Shown here piece after piece: positions 11,082-52,995 of a stretch of 64,000 nucleotides of DNA. The translations under genes and the position numbers were made by a program. Each line of letters starts with the position of its first letter. Position 1 is the stretch's first letter. Below the pieces are notes generated by a model. It worked only from the letters and a program-made list of their open reading frames with translations, made no database searches and had not been told where the DNA came from. The stretch covers positions 1,020,490 through 1,084,489 of the forward strand of contig JAVZEV010000001.1 in the NCBI GenBank assembly GCA_038873195.1, written 5' to 3'. The stretch is from Candidatus Bathyarchaeia archaeon. GTDB taxonomy: Archaea; Thermoproteota; Bathyarchaeia; Bathyarchaeales; Bathycorpusculaceae.

Positions 11082-12143
11082 ATGGTTGAAGAGTACTTTA
11101 AGAGAAAAGTTGAAGCCATAGAAGTGAAAGAAAAAAGTATTTCTCAACTTTTGGCGGAGATGAGCAGAACAGCCTATCAAGGAAGAAAGCTTGGAGAGGC
11201 TGTGGAAGTTTGGGAAGCCATGCTGAAAGAAAAGGACTTAACAATCATCATGGGCTTTTCGGGTTCAATGAGCACAGCTGGACAGTGGAAGATAATTAAT
11301 TGGCTTATGGAAAACCGCTTCATCGACGTTCTTGTCTCTACAGGCGCAAATGTCTCTGAAGACATTGTGGACGCTATGGGTTTTGGATATTGGCAGGGAA
11401 GCCACATGGTGAACGATGAGGCGCTTCTAAAAGCTGACATAAACAGGTATTATGATGTGTTTGGCAAGGAATCTGATTATAGGAAAATGGAAGAGTTGAT
11501 GACTGATTTCTTGTTAACCTTGCGAACGGACTTCACATACTCTTCTATGGAGCTTCTTTACTTGTTCGGCAAGTGGCTCAGCAAAAAAGGAATAAAAAGC
11601 ATAGCCGCAGTAGCATCAGAAAACAACGTGCCAATTTTCTGTCCTGCAATCTCCGACAGCGCTTACGGCGAAGCCTTTCTAATGGCTAAAAACATGGGAC
11701 ACCCAATCGTAATAGATTCAGTCAAAGAGTTCGACCAGTTCGTTGGCATAGGTGAAAAAACAAAGGACATTGGCGTAATCTACATAGGCGGGGGAGTACC
11801 AAAAGACTTCACACAACTAATCGCAATATCCGTCTCGCCGAAAACCATGGACAAAGGCGTGCCCGGAAGAGAAGGTTTCAAACGTAAAAGTGTCCAAGAA
11901 TATTATTATCCGCACAAATACGCAATACAAATTACAACCGACTCGCCCCAATGGGGTGGCTTGTCAGGTTGCACTTTGGAAGAAGCGGTTAGCTGGGGCA
12001 AAATCCATAGCGAAGGAAAAAGAGCCGTTTGCTACTGCGACGCAACAATAGCTTTGCCACTCATAACGCATGCGTTAAATGAAAGGGTGAAAGCTAAAAG
12101 GAAAGCTCCAGACCTTTCGTGGCTATTCAGCCAAGTAACTTAG
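11082..12143 (+). CDS. Deoxyhypusine-synthase-like protein, GGGVPKDF type
   Basis: 353 residues of the deoxyhypusine synthase fold. It has a Rossmann NAD-binding region (VSTGANVSEDI at 86-96) and the motif GGGVPK, with K241 at the position of the catalytic lysine that forms the enzyme-butylamine intermediate. The sequence after the lysine (KDF, then a YYYPHKYAIQITTDSP stretch) follows the group of bacterial and archaeal homologues that often act outside eIF5A modification, for example on polyamines. It is convergent with a second homologue, and the two genes overlap by 17 bp at their 3' ends. Exact substrate unresolved. Confidence 0.8.
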   Translation: MVEEYFKRKVEAIEVKEKSISQLLAEMSRTAYQGRKLGEAVEVWEAMLKEKDLTIIMGFSGSMSTAGQWKIINWLMENRFIDVLVSTGANVSEDIVDAMGFGYWQGSHMVNDEALLKADINRYYDVFGKESDYRKMEELMTDFLLTLRTDFTYSSMELLYLFGKWLSKKGIKSIAAVASENNVPIFCPAISDSAYGEAFLMAKNMGHPIVIDSVKEFDQFVGIGEKTKDIGVIYIGGGVPKDFTQLIAISVSPKTMDKGVPGREGFKRKSVQEYYYPHKYAIQITTDSPQWGGLSGCTLEEAVSWGKIHSEGKRAVCYCDATIALPLITHALNERVKAKRKAPDLSWLFSQVT

Positions 12144-13080
12144 GACTTTTCTTTAATCTACTTATCAGCGAACTTATCATCACGGGCAGTATAAGTGAAG
12201 CATCGCCCTCAATCATTATGCGTTTTGCTTTCGCGCTTATTTTTCCCCACGAGACTGCTTCTCGTGGTCTAGCACCGGAGAGGCTTCCATCCCATTCGTC
12301 GGCAGTGCTTATGTAAACCGCGTAGTCTAAGCCTTCTCTGAATTGGTTCCACCAAAGCGTATGATGTTTTGAGATGCCTCCGCCCACTATTAGTGCGCCG
12401 GTTTTTTTCGCGTTGTAAACGATATCGCTGAGTTCTCCAGAATCTTTTAAAAGGTTAATTTTGAAGTTGTGGTCTTGAGAGAAAAGCCACAGTTGGTAAC
12501 CCACGGCGCCGTCTGTTATGCCTGGCACGTAAACTGGTATTTTGTTTTTGGCTGCCCAATAGAGAATGGAGCCTTCGTTGCAGATTCTTTTTCCAATTTC
12601 GCGGCACAACTGACTGGATGAGAGTTCTTTTTCGCCTTCTTTCCATAAACTCTGAAGCAGCTCCTGCATTTTTTCTTCGATTATTACGCCGTAGCTTTCG
12701 TTTGGGACGAGCACGTTTCCTAAACGGTTCACGCCTTTCTTGCGAAGTTCAGCGTCATTCATTACAAATGAGCCTTTGTAATAGTTTTTCCAGCATCTGG
12801 CAATGTCGTGGTCAAGAGCCCCGCAAGTGGTGATTACAACATCGACAAGTTTTCTTTTCACGAGGTCTTTGAAAACGCCTCTTGTTCCGGTAGCTACAAG
12901 ATTGCCTGTGAACGAGAGAAACTTTACGCAGTCACGCGTCCTAATCATGCGTTCCAGAATATTCACGCTCAGAGCCAGTTTTCCTGCGGTAAAACCCCAT
13001 GCTTTCTCCATCTGTTTTACTAGAGCATCCACAGTCATTTTCTCTGAAAGCTCATAATCATCAACAATGTTCTTCGGCAT
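12127..13080 (-). CDS. dys: Deoxyhypusine synthase (GGGISKHH type)
   Basis: 317 residues. The motif GGGISKHH places K238 where the catalytic lysine of human deoxyhypusine synthase (GGGVVKHH) sits, and ADEWDGSLSGARPREAVSWGK matches the spermidine-site loop. This is the copy more likely to transfer the aminobutyl group of spermidine to the lysine of aIF5A, the first step of hypusine formation. The NAD loop reads TTCGALDHDIA, somewhat divergent from TTAGGVEED. No aIF5A gene is in the window. Overlaps the + strand homologue by 17 bp. Confidence 0.85.
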   Translation of the reverse strand: MPKNIVDDYELSEKMTVDALVKQMEKAWGFTAGKLALSVNILERMIRTRDCVKFLSFTGNLVATGTRGVFKDLVKRKLVDVVITTCGALDHDIARCWKNYYKGSFVMNDAELRKKGVNRLGNVLVPNESYGVIIEEKMQELLQSLWKEGEKELSSSQLCREIGKRICNEGSILYWAAKNKIPVYVPGITDGAVGYQLWLFSQDHNFKINLLKDSGELSDIVYNAKKTGALIVGGGISKHHTLWWNQFREGLDYAVYISTADEWDGSLSGARPREAVSWGKISAKAKRIMIEGDASLILPVMISSLISRLKKSPKLLG

Positions 13081-13183: not shown

Positions 13184-14077
13184 CTAGTCTGTCAAATATT
13201 TTATGATTTTCTCGTACACGTCCTTGTTCCGCAAGTCTTCTTGTCCCGCGTATATGCTTGGGTTGTCGTTAACTTCCACCACCAAATAGTTACCATCAAC
13301 CTCTTTAATGTCCACTCCATACAGTCCATTTCCCACAACTCTACATGCCTTCAACGCCGTCTCCTTCAATCCGACTGGCGCATTTTCTTTTTTAAGCGAC
13401 ACCGTCCTGCCCCAAACAAAGCTGGGCTTACCACGACGTTTAGCGCCATGCTTCCATCTTCCCTTCGGCACCATATACTTGCAAATGTATAAGACTTCAC
13501 CGTTTAATACACCGACTCGCCAGTCAAAAGCAGTTGGCGTAAACTTTTGCACCGCCAACACATCAGATTTTCTGAAAAATCTTTTTGCAACTTCACGGAA
13601 ACTTGTTTCACAAGCAACTTTTTCCACGTATCTTGAGAAACTCGTGTATGGCGCTTTAACCACGACTGGTCTTCCGAACGTTCTGAAGATTTCTAATATG
13701 CGTTTATGATGGAAGTCGTCTTTGTTAACTATGATTGTTGGGATGCGCGGCACATCATATTTTTCGAAGAGCGAATACAAGTGAATCTTGTTTCCGCAGA
13801 TTTGTATCGATTTGGGGTCGTCAACAACTCTTAAACCATTCTCCCAAGCAGTCTTGGAAACTATGTACGCAGTAAAAAGCGGGTCAGTTGTCGCTCTAAT
13901 AAAGACAGCGTCATACTTTGGAATTTCCAGAAGATTCTCTCGAAACATGAAATTAAAGTTGTGACCTAGTTTTTCCGCTGTAAACTTGAAATTTTCGAGC
14001 GCTTTGGCTTCTTTTGGGTCTGTAAAATTATATTTTTCGACAAAACAGGCGATGTTAGCCAACCCGATGTTCACCAT
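13184..14077 (-). CDS. RimK-like ATP-grasp ligase
   Basis: 297 residues. A pre-ATP-grasp domain covers about 1-95, and the ATP-grasp fold follows: FGRPVVVKAPYTSFSRYV (nucleotide lysine and flexible loop) near residues 133-150, AVQKFTPTAFDWRVGVLNG around 188-206, and the metal-binding VDIKEVDGNYLVVEVNDNPS near 262-281. Such enzymes join a carboxylate to an amine through an acyl-phosphate, for example glutamate onto proteins or small acids. It overlaps the upstream RLAN gene by 23 bp, so the two are translationally coupled and probably form one enzyme. Confidence 0.85.
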   Translation of the reverse strand: MVNIGLANIACFVEKYNFTDPKEAKALENFKFTAEKLGHNFNFMFRENLLEIPKYDAVFIRATTDPLFTAYIVSKTAWENGLRVVDDPKSIQICGNKIHLYSLFEKYDVPRIPTIIVNKDDFHHKRILEIFRTFGRPVVVKAPYTSFSRYVEKVACETSFREVAKRFFRKSDVLAVQKFTPTAFDWRVGVLNGEVLYICKYMVPKGRWKHGAKRRGKPSFVWGRTVSLKKENAPVGLKETALKACRVVGNGLYGVDIKEVDGNYLVVEVNDNPSIYAGQEDLRNKDVYEKIIKYLTD

Positions 14078-14747
14078 TCTTAGAAATTTGCCAAATTTCT
14101 TCGCTAATTACTTTTAAGTCCTTTGGTGAGAGTTCCTCTTTTCTTAATGGTTGAAGTCCGCATAAGTAAGCTTCCTTTTCTACACGTTGAACATGCAATT
14201 TGCAAAGTGGAATCCCGAAAACCTCGTACACCATCTCCGAAATCTCTCTTATTTTTCTATCCATTTCACATTTCCCAAAAATTGACTTAAACGATGTCAC
14301 CTCGCCTTGGAGAGGTTGCGCACAAACAGGAAACTTGTAATTCATTTCTAAACTTTTTACTGCTCTGTAAAGGGCGCTTCTATTTTTTGCAATTTTAAAG
14401 CCATCGTATGAGAACGGGTTTACTGCGAAAAGAACAGTTGGAAAGCCAACTTCAGCCATTATTTGCTTCACAGAACCAGTTACTATGTAAGGTATCGTTG
14501 GAATGCCCGCTTTTGAAGCGCGAAGCAGCAGAATTGGCGTTCTGTAAGCGTCAACCAAGTTCTCGCTTGTTGGAATCACTGGGTTACCTAAAATTTCCGC
14601 ATGCAAAGACACGTAATATCCAGTTTTCAAATAGCGATAATCATTGTTAATGTTGAGAGTAAAATCTTTAATTGACGATTCAAGAAACGTTGACGGCTTC
14701 ATTGTAGGCAAATCTGTGGTTAGGTCGATGTTTGAGACGACCAACAC
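14055..14747 (-). CDS. RLAN-like domain protein (RimK-like ATP-grasp N-terminal partner)
   Basis: 230 residues from GTG at 14747 (GGTG about 8 nt before). The segment NINNDYRYLKTGYYVSLHAE followed by NPVIPT resembles the RLAN domain, which in many bacteria is fused to the N-terminus of RimK-type ATP-grasp proteins. Here it is a separate gene overlapping the ATP-grasp gene. The C-terminal half (130-230) has no recognised domain but holds cysteines at C139, C157 and C180. The promoter probably lies at 14791-14801 (TTTAAA-type on this strand). Family call rests on motif memory. Confidence 0.6.
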   Translation of the reverse strand: MLVVSNIDLTTDLPTMKPSTFLESSIKDFTLNINNDYRYLKTGYYVSLHAEILGNPVIPTSENLVDAYRTPILLLRASKAGIPTIPYIVTGSVKQIMAEVGFPTVLFAVNPFSYDGFKIAKNRSALYRAVKSLEMNYKFPVCAQPLQGEVTSFKSIFGKCEMDRKIREISEMVYEVFGIPLCKLHVQRVEKEAYLCGLQPLRKEELSPKDLKVISEEIWQISKNGEHRVG

Positions 14748-14811
14748 GCATTAAGCACCAGACAATTGAAAAAGCGGTATTTGCTTCAGACTATTTAAAA
14801 TTAACTGTAAT

Positions 14812-14819
14812 TTTTATAT
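14812..14819 (+). promoter_or_regulatory. TATA box candidate for the GCS2-like gene
   Basis: TTTTATAT lies about 26 nt before 14842, so a transcript would begin just before the open frame that encodes the GCS2-like ligase. Back to back with it, TATTTAAAA at 14792-14800 could serve the minus-strand RLAN gene. Confidence 0.45.
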
Positions 14820-14860
14820 CATATTCCAGAAACAAGTAGGATTTAAAAAAGGGAACAGCC

Positions 14861-16054
14861 ACGTACAAAACTTTAGAAGTTCTCGGACCAGAACATGAAT
14901 TTTCCATAGTAAACGAAGAACTCAAAGCATTGCCAATCGTTGACAAAATCATAAAAGATTTCCGCGGACGCATCGTAAACTTCGTAGAACAGCCAAACTT
15001 CACTTTTGGCAAGGAACTTCAATTACACGTAATGGAAATAAAACCAAACGAGCCTTTCAAATCGCCCGTAGAATTTGAAGAAAACATGCACAAAGCAGTT
15101 CTCGCCATAGCCGATTTTTTAGAAAGAAAATACAAAGCAAGCCTTCTCGGAACCGGCATGCACCCACTACTAAAACTTAAAGACACTGGAATTTGGCCTC
15201 ATCGCCACAAGCAGATTTATCAGGCTTACAGCAAAGTTTTCAATCTCAAACAACATGGGTGGCTTAACATTCAAAGTTTTCAGTTGAACTTGCCATATTC
15301 CAGTGAGAAAGACGCAGTTTTGGTGCATAATTTGCTTGCAGAAATATGCACTTACTTGCCTGCCATCTGCGCGTCTTCGCCCCTATTTGAGGGACACTTA
15401 GGGAACTACGTTGACACGCGCTTACATTTTTATATGTTAAACCAAAAAGAAGTACCTTCCATAACTGGCGATGTAGTGCCAGAATATGTTTCCTCGTTTA
15501 GGCAGTACAAAGAAGATATTATTGGCAAATATTCCTTAGACCTTGTCAAGGCTGGCGTAAACGATTACCTTCCTTATCAAGACTGGGTTAACTCTCGCGG
15601 AGTAATTTTCCGATTTGACAGAAGAGCCGTTGAAATACGAGTAATGGACGAGCAGGAATGTGTTAAGTCAGACGTGGCTTTGAGCTGTTTTGTGAGAGCT
15701 TTGCTGAGAGGGTTATTAAAAGACGGCAAAACGGAGTTTTTGTCTCACGAAATGTTAGTGAAAGATTTCAACTCAATAATCCGAGAAGGATTAAAAGCAC
15801 ATGTTTTGCACCCTTATGGAAACACTGCCCGTCATGTTTGTAAATATTACATGGATACTGCTTGGAAAAATGCGACGGATGAAGAGAGAAAATATCTTCC
15901 ATTAATAAAAAAGAGGCTGGAATGTGGCAATCTGTCGGAAATTATCAGAGAAAGAATCTTGAGAAAAGCACAAAAGACAGATTTGCATGAGGCAATAGTA
16001 AGCGTTTACTTAACACTTATAAAGTGTCTTATAAATAATCAACCCTACTTCTAA
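14861..16054 (+). CDS. Glutamate-cysteine-ligase family 2 (GCS2/YbdK-like) amidoligase, apparent ACG start
   Basis: About 397 residues. The N-terminal motif LGPEHEFSIV is the glutamate/metal-binding strand of the GCS2 fold. It is followed by HVMEIKPNEPF, GTGMHPLL, LNIQSFQLNLP and SSPLFEGHLGNYVDTR, all in family order. The motif GPEHEF lies upstream of the first conventional start codon (TTG 14930). Between the TAG at 14837 and the motif there is no ATG, GTG or TTG; ACG at 14861-14863 is the best candidate, preceded by AAGGGA. The product would ligate an amine or amino acid to a glutamyl-type carboxylate. Probably acts with the divergent RLAN/ATP-grasp pair. Confidence 0.78.
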   Translation, partial: TYKTLEVLGPEHEFSIVNEELKALPIVDKIIKDFRGRIVNFVEQPNFTFGKELQLHVMEIKPNEPFKSPVEFEENMHKAVLAIADFLERKYKASLLGTGMHPLLKLKDTGIWPHRHKQIYQAYSKVFNLKQHGWLNIQSFQLNLPYSSEKDAVLVHNLLAEICTYLPAICASSPLFEGHLGNYVDTRLHFYMLNQKEVPSITGDVVPEYVSSFRQYKEDIIGKYSLDLVKAGVNDYLPYQDWVNSRGVIFRFDRRAVEIRVMDEQECVKSDVALSCFVRALLRGLLKDGKTEFLSHEMLVKDFNSIIREGLKAHVLHPYGNTARHVCKYYMDTAWKNATDEERKYLPLIKKRLECGNLSEIIRERILRKAQKTDLHEAIVSVYLTLIKCLINNQPYF

Positions 16055-16075
16055 AAGCAATAAGGAGAGGCTTCC

Positions 16076-16630
16076 ATGACTACTAAAGAAGAACGACAAA
16101 GCAACTTCTTCGACGTCTGCGGCTCTTGCAAAATCAGCTGTTGCCAAGATGCGTATCCTCCCATAACAGACCAGCGTAGGCGAATAATTGAAGCGTATTT
16201 GAAAGAGCAAAAGATTATGATTGAGAACCCATTTGTTCACGAGGGATACACCTTTCCAAGAGGAGATGCAGAAGGCTACTGTATATTCTATGATAAAAAA
16301 ACAAGAAAATGCCAAGTGCACCCTGTAAAACCAGAAACATGCGTCGCCGGACCAATAACCTTCGACATAAACAAAAAAACCCAAAAAATCGAATGGTACC
16401 TTAAAATGGAAAAAATATGCCCCTTAGCAGGAAAAATGCACAGAAATCAGCCAGTTCTCAAAAAACACGTTGAAACAGCAAAAAAAGAAATCTTGAAACT
16501 CGTAAACGAACTTGATGCTGAGGCACTACAAACTATACTGAAAAGAGACGAACCCGACACGTTCAAAATAGACGAAAACAACATTGAAAAGGACATCTTA
16601 AACAAATTATCCAAAAATGACGAACCCTAA
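16076..16630 (+). CDS. YkgJ-family cysteine-cluster protein
   Basis: 184 residues with a strong AAGGAGAGG ribosome-binding site. Cysteines occur as CGSCKISCCQDAYP near residues 16-29, then GYCIFYDKKTRKCQVHPVKP and CVAGP, the arrangement of the YkgJ or CxxxxxCC zinc/iron-chelating family. Relatives are thought to bind metal and often sit beside modification enzymes. It lies 21 nt after the GCS2-like gene and is probably in its operon, which links a metal-cluster protein to the amidoligase system. The C-terminal 60 residues are charged helices. Confidence 0.82.
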   Translation: MTTKEERQSNFFDVCGSCKISCCQDAYPPITDQRRRIIEAYLKEQKIMIENPFVHEGYTFPRGDAEGYCIFYDKKTRKCQVHPVKPETCVAGPITFDINKKTQKIEWYLKMEKICPLAGKMHRNQPVLKKHVETAKKEILKLVNELDAEALQTILKRDEPDTFKIDENNIEKDILNKLSKNDEP

Positions 16631-52860: not shown

Positions 52861-52995
52861 TGGCGCCGGGGAAGGGATTCGAACCCCTGCGAGCCCGAAG
52901 GCCCACTGGCTTGCTTGTGTTTTTTTCTCCTAGCCCCCTTATATATAGGCTGGTTGATCTCGAGGCCAGCGCGTTAACCGCTCCGCCACCCCGGC
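52861..52995 (-). tRNA. tRNA-Ser (anticodon CGA) with intron, CCA encoded
   Basis: Class II tRNA. Acceptor GCCGGGG/CCCCGGC, anticodon stem CTGGC/GCCAG, anticodon CGA, long variable arm GGGCC-TTCG-GGCTC, T-loop TTCGAAT, discriminator G at 52864 and CCA at 52861-52863. An intron of about 47 nt (52912-52958) interrupts the loop after position 37, the canonical site, and can fold through AGCC/GGCT as part of the bulge-helix-bulge. Confidence 0.93.

Follow-up and report, generated by a model that had tools for sequence, protein, structure and literature searches.

Two questions are raised by a four-gene locus in the genome of a Candidatus Bathyarchaeia archaeon: what the genes make together, and how one of them is translated from a reading frame with no canonical start codon ahead of its GPEHEF motif. 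The locus lies within a window of 64,000 nucleotides, the whole stretch of DNA analysed, which covers positions 1,020,490–1,084,489 of the 1.46 Mb contig JAVZEV010000001.1. On the minus strand, a RimK-like ATP-grasp ligase (13184–14077; PF08443, E = 7.8e-08; 297 aa from an ATG at 14077) overlaps the gene for an RLAN protein (14055–14747; PF14401, E = 2.8e-17; 230 aa, GTG start). On the plus strand, a GCS2 carboxylate-amine ligase of the YbdK/GCL type (14861–16054; PF04107, E = 1.2e-32; 397 aa) is followed by a YkgJ/CxxCxxCC protein (16076–16630; PF03692, E = 6.9e-10; 184 aa). A first-pass annotation had given these positions and families and had seen that two types of amide-forming enzyme are combined here. 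The Pfam matches, all above the curated cut-offs, bear this out for each of the four genes. Here, we show that the genes form a conserved, genuine peptide-bond-making module. Our best overall reading, to which we give a probability of roughly 0.62, is that of a four-gene glutamyl-type module, in which GCS2 would work with a heteromer of one active and one pseudo ATP-grasp protein and would itself be limited by initiation at an ACG codon.

A survey of the class (163 genomes) detects RLAN in 41 genomes and GCS2 in 42; 39 have both. The first-pass annotation had staked its grouping on repeated co-occurrence in related genomes, and these 39 genomes supply it. Because the cassette recurs across genera, the grouping goes far beyond chance. 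The ATP-grasp gene directly follows RLAN in every one of 41 retrieved loci, and the majority of loci have the divergent layout of the window, RLAN and ATP-grasp on one strand and GCS2 and YkgJ on the opposite strand. In six genomes the two halves lie apart; all four genes are kept, and GCS2 and YkgJ are still adjacent. Three genomes carry GCS2 without RLAN. RLAN is almost absent from the remainder of the phylum, and all named relatives of the window protein come from Candidatus Bathyarchaeota genomes.

The start of GCS2 is the most unusual feature of the module. From the in-frame stop at 14837–14839 to the GPEHEF motif there is no ATG, GTG or TTG; one has to go 23 codons into the protein to meet a canonical codon, a TTG. 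Eight codons ahead of GPEHEF stands an ACG (14861–14863, plus strand). This position is ACG in all 37 readable genomes, and in one more whose gene is frameshifted further on, and these represent 19 genera. Of 49 four-fold degenerate columns with a conserved amino acid, this is the sole column with an invariant codon; at the others the commonest codon reaches 26–76%, and ACG makes up 99 of the 483 Thr codons in the GCS2 genes compared. Conservation of the codon across 38 genomes, at one column in 49, is thus beyond synonymous expectation. In one locus (L100), ACG and an upstream GAGG are kept despite different following residues. A Shine-Dalgarno-like AAGGG is located 7 nt before the ACG of the window (14849–14853, plus strand), and GAGG or AGGG occurs 7–9 nt 5′ of ACG in 32 of 37 loci. 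The nucleotides separating GAGG from ACG vary, and coding conservation sets in exactly at ACG. About 45 nt before ACG, the stretch TTTTATAT (14812–14819, plus strand) may be a TATA-like element; many relatives have a similar AT-rich stretch equally far from ACG. In 25 genomes there are no canonical codons between the stop and ACG, and in one locus (L087) an in-frame stop lies a single codon 5′ of it. In line with a start at this position, ATG occupies the very same column in G085, a genome without RLAN. On the GCS2 tree, the ACG label requires three changes. From these sequence patterns we strongly infer that GCS2 is translated from a conserved, rare ACG start. The first-pass annotation was right to call a ligase here and missed this start, on which its 113-bp gap between the divergent gene pairs (14748–14860) nevertheless depends: the figure is exact if GCS2 begins at ACG 14861, and only then.

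An invariant ACG near the start is confined to GCS2 among 25 neighbouring gene families. A helicase family (c20) has two ACG columns, both far into a protein whose conserved start is TTG, and an apparent start-column ACG in CofE (cluster c8) was judged to be an internal residue, as the CofE of another locus (L109) extends upstream. A scan of ~460 kb yielded no other ACG start linked to a Shine-Dalgarno sequence, a weak test in a genome with few strong Shine-Dalgarno genes. The ATP-grasp gene of L100 likewise begins with ACG, after GGAGG. More generally, the enzymes of the module have weak starts. The RLAN start is GTG or TTG in each of the 41 loci, and that of the ATP-grasp gene is GTG or TTG in most loci and ATG in three; for the latter gene, the start conserved in relatives is the TTG at 14062, as against the ATG at 14077. 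Genes that can only start at TTG are present elsewhere in these loci, so the TTG starts of the module are less unusual. ACG belongs to a group of codons that reached 0.1–1.5% of the ATG level in one reporter study in E. coli (PMC6925171). These weak starts, ACG above all, suggest that the product is needed in small amounts or is translationally controlled. The nearest parallel is infC of E. coli, which encodes IF3 and likewise keeps a conserved non-AUG start, AUU, on one gene for regulation (cited in PMC9845219). In GCS2 the codon is ACG rather than AUU and the gene encodes an archaeal metabolic enzyme, for which a regulatory role is hypothetical. Taking this parallel further, ACG might act as a sensor of initiation stringency, with the module modifying a component of translation, or making its cofactor, under feedback control like that of the infC AUU; this is a long shot. 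Our literature searches returned nothing relevant on ACG starts in archaea.

Could the codon be conserved for some other reason? Its invariance is at the nucleotide level, as would be expected if ACG were part of a DNA or RNA element under constraint, or if it were edited from C to U to give AUG in the mRNA. Such editing turns ACG into AUG in chloroplast psbL, rpl2 and ndhD (PMC9845219). Yet the flanking nucleotides vary, while the ACG, its spacing from GAGG and the conservation of the downstream reading frame stay, and no Rfam family overlaps the GCS2 start. An edited codon, moreover, would still be the start of GCS2. We regard both variants as quite improbable. Still less credible is the notion that the GCS2 genes are being lost, with decay or assembly error behind the missing start. 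Single genomes do contain frameshifts, one in GCS2 at GPEH (L032, 2304–3476) and one that breaks the ATP-grasp gene into two frames (L036, 8334–9209), each attributable to assembly error or decay; but 37 genomes have intact GCS2 frames that are 52–88% identical, keep their active-site residues unchanged and vary freely at synonymous sites, which leaves this explanation almost no weight. If the ACG start is real, then gene callers limited to ATG, GTG and TTG cut the catalytic N-terminus, including GPEHEF, off GCS2 in many genomes. It would also mean that an archaeal non-AUG start has been kept over long evolution, implying selection for weak or regulated initiation.

RLAN, in turn, appears to be related to its neighbour. 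When the RLAN profile was compared with that of the ATP-grasp partner, hhalign gave E = 8.4e-06 for the segment that leads into the ATP-binding lobe. With more sequences added, the N-terminal halves of the two matched at E = 8.3e-07, and control pairs gave 0.0068 or worse. The best PDB matches of the predicted RLAN structure in Foldseek are RimK, LysX, MdnC and PsnB, the best at E = 4.6e-05 for a model of mean pLDDT 52; at the sequence level, neither the RLAN nor the YkgJ profile had a usable PDB match. In the alignment of RLAN with the ATP-grasp protein, the ATP-binding lysine is replaced by phenylalanine. The ligase, on the other hand, retains residues of catalytic type (K136, R182, D251, E263 and N265, A5 numbering) that are invariant among archaeal and bacterial homologues. 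These comparisons lead us to propose, with moderate confidence, that RLAN is probably a pseudo-ATP-grasp partner of the ligase and that the two proteins form a complex. The first-pass annotation had the RLAN family right, but its treatment of RLAN as an independent part was incomplete, since RLAN corresponds to the N-terminal part of the fused RLAN-RimK proteins of bacteria and resembles a degenerate ATP-grasp; the archaeal form exceeds the bacterial domain by ~70 residues. If RLAN is indeed a dead ATP-grasp, the presence of this unexplained domain in bacterial "RimK family proteins" would be accounted for, and the archaeal version, split into two genes, would offer a tractable heteromeric ligase.

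The fourth protein carries the PF03692 cysteine motif and further conserved cysteines, eight of which are invariant in 13 homologues (C15, C18, C22, C23, C69, C79, C89 and C115). FliB, with a similar CX4CX3CC motif, binds a [4Fe-4S] cluster (PMC8598068). By analogy with FliB-type proteins, with which it has in common a PF03692-like motif and eight conserved cysteines, YkgJ may hold a metal centre, probably Fe-S. FliB, however, is a flagellin lysine methyltransferase, and no link to SAM or flagellin is evident for YkgJ.

How might these parts act together? In the mechanism that we favour, GCS2 would phosphorylate a glutamate-type carboxyl and join it to an amine substrate, forming the first amide bond. 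The RimK-type ATP-grasp, in complex with the catalytically dead RLAN, would add a further amino acid through a second amide bond, and the metal centre of YkgJ, probably Fe-S, would modify, sense or use the product. Synthesis of GCS2 may be kept low, or regulated, via the conserved ACG. The substrates, the product and the role of YkgJ we can only infer; most likely the product is a small glutamyl-type molecule present in low amounts, and not a bulk thiol or ribosomal peptide. ORF clusters beside the module, which were built from ORFs of 70 aa or more, contain no recurrent precursor-peptide ORF of the kind that lies beside the ATP-grasp gene in graspetide (RiPP) clusters.

Several observations weigh against this reading of the module. 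Twelve of the 37 genomes have an in-frame ATG, GTG or TTG somewhere upstream of ACG. Two g3 genomes keep the module and have an ATG two codons upstream, with ACG missing at the column; together with genomes that lack RLAN, these are the exceptions to ACG. The C-terminal half of RLAN gives no significant profile match to the ATP-grasp protein, and the AlphaFold model of RLAN, with the low mean pLDDT noted above, is weak, being better at residues 141–227. Finally, the complete module also occurs in a single genome from a different class (G262). This is likely due to transfer or mis-binning, because G262 is the sole carrier among 35 relatives.

Two other functions need to be weighed. The module could modify a distant protein, such as a ribosomal or other translation protein, with the RimK-like ligase adding glutamate or another amino acid and GCS2 preparing the unit. 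RimK relatives do modify ribosomal protein S6, the window ligase has RimK-family matches, and the module has no visible precursor peptide gene next to it. Neither TIGR00768 nor the RimK equivalog reaches its cut-off, however (rimK_fam scores 71 bits against 143), and the GCS2 enzymes whose function is known use free amino acids as substrates, which counts against a protein substrate. On balance we consider protein modification unlikely. More doubtful again is a bulk thiol pathway following the logic of GshA and GshB in glutathione synthesis, in which GCS2 would make gamma-glutamyl-cysteine and the ATP-grasp would extend it. The pairing of a GCL-family enzyme with an ATP-grasp follows an identical logic, and there is weak similarity to plant glutamate-cysteine ligase. 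But the glutamate-cysteine ligase equivalog models score only 12–28 bits against cut-offs of 332–463, the weak start codons of the enzymes fit a low-level product, and glutathione synthesis gives no role to RLAN or YkgJ. With only four genes involved, the pathway product of an abundant, uncultured archaeal lineage becomes directly testable.

The surroundings of the module also contain features of interest. In the window, two distinct deoxyhypusine synthase genes, each matching PF01916, are convergent with a 17 bp overlap (11082–12143, plus strand; 12127–13080, minus strand). Many relatives also have this pair flanking the module. We rejected the synthases as module members, as they are not beside it in several genera or in L100 and represent flanking synteny. 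In seven loci of one genus, genes for an SCP2-domain protein and for CofE, the F420-0:gamma-glutamyl ligase, come after GCS2 and YkgJ on the other strand. A genome without RLAN or GCS2 (G107; locus L109, 4613–9834) has YkgJ, then a PLP enzyme, a DUF1611 protein, a 448-aa protein with no Pfam match and a GNAT protein. Fifteen of the 163 genomes, all of them without RLAN, encode the 448-aa protein, which may mark a replacement pathway. Elsewhere in the window, a 132-nt Rfam tRNA match (52864–52995, minus strand), absent from the ARAGORN list, is probably an intron-containing tRNA gene.

Compared with single enzymes of known function, those of the module stand apart, missing every NCBIfam equivalog cut-off for RimK, LysX, MptN, CofF, YbdK and glutamate-cysteine ligase. 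The ATP-grasp shares its fold and catalytic residues with LysX/ArgX, RimK, MptN and CofF, and its best PDB sequence match is ArgX (3vpb); it differs in its scores (MptN, 62 bits against 350; LysX, 61 against 276) and in its obligate RLAN partner. GCS2 likewise belongs to the Pfam family of YbdK and the plant-type glutamate-cysteine ligase and has a profile match to YbdK (1r8g), but falls below the equivalog cut-offs and has different partners. Our literature searches found nothing relevant on RLAN/GCS2 function. The closest relatives are bacterial operons that encode RLAN, a RimK-type ATP-grasp and GCS2 together, as here, with 33–36% identity in the ATP-grasp and GCS2; such an RLAN-RimK/GCS2 amidoligase system was reportedly described by Iyer et al. 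in 2009. On a Legionella adelaidensis plasmid (NZ_LR134436), a fused RLAN-RimK accompanies N-formylglutamate amidohydrolase and a GCS2 that is 32.5% identical to that of the window over its full length. In Azospirillum (NZ_CP032340), a GNAT-C39 peptidase adjoins the fused RLAN-RimK. The window ATP-grasp is 35–36% identical to the second half of such fused proteins, with its ligand residues intact. Looser relatives include a ligase on a phage-like IMG/VR contig (L135, 5719–6879; 34% identical to the window ligase), in which a very short RLAN-like N-terminus is fused to ATP-grasp, and an RLAN-RimK-like ligase on a Pseudomonas aeruginosa plasmid (L136, 4731–6320) without GCS2 alongside. The archaeal module has the RLAN domain, the intact ATP-grasp encoded with it, and a nearby, co-inherited GCS2. 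It does not have the fusion or the hydrolase or peptidase neighbour, which are typical but not essential in bacteria: every archaeal locus encodes RLAN and ATP-grasp in two overlapping genes, where the two bacterial ones (L112, L113) have a fusion, and neither GNAT-C39 peptidase nor N-formylglutamate amidohydrolase is found among the window genes or the recurrent neighbours examined, YkgJ standing in their place. The apparent ACG start of GCS2 is a further difference from the bacterial operons. Because a fused RLAN-RimK occurs beside GCS2 in bacteria, the module is a split, YkgJ-bearing variant of a known bacterial kind of amidoligase system.

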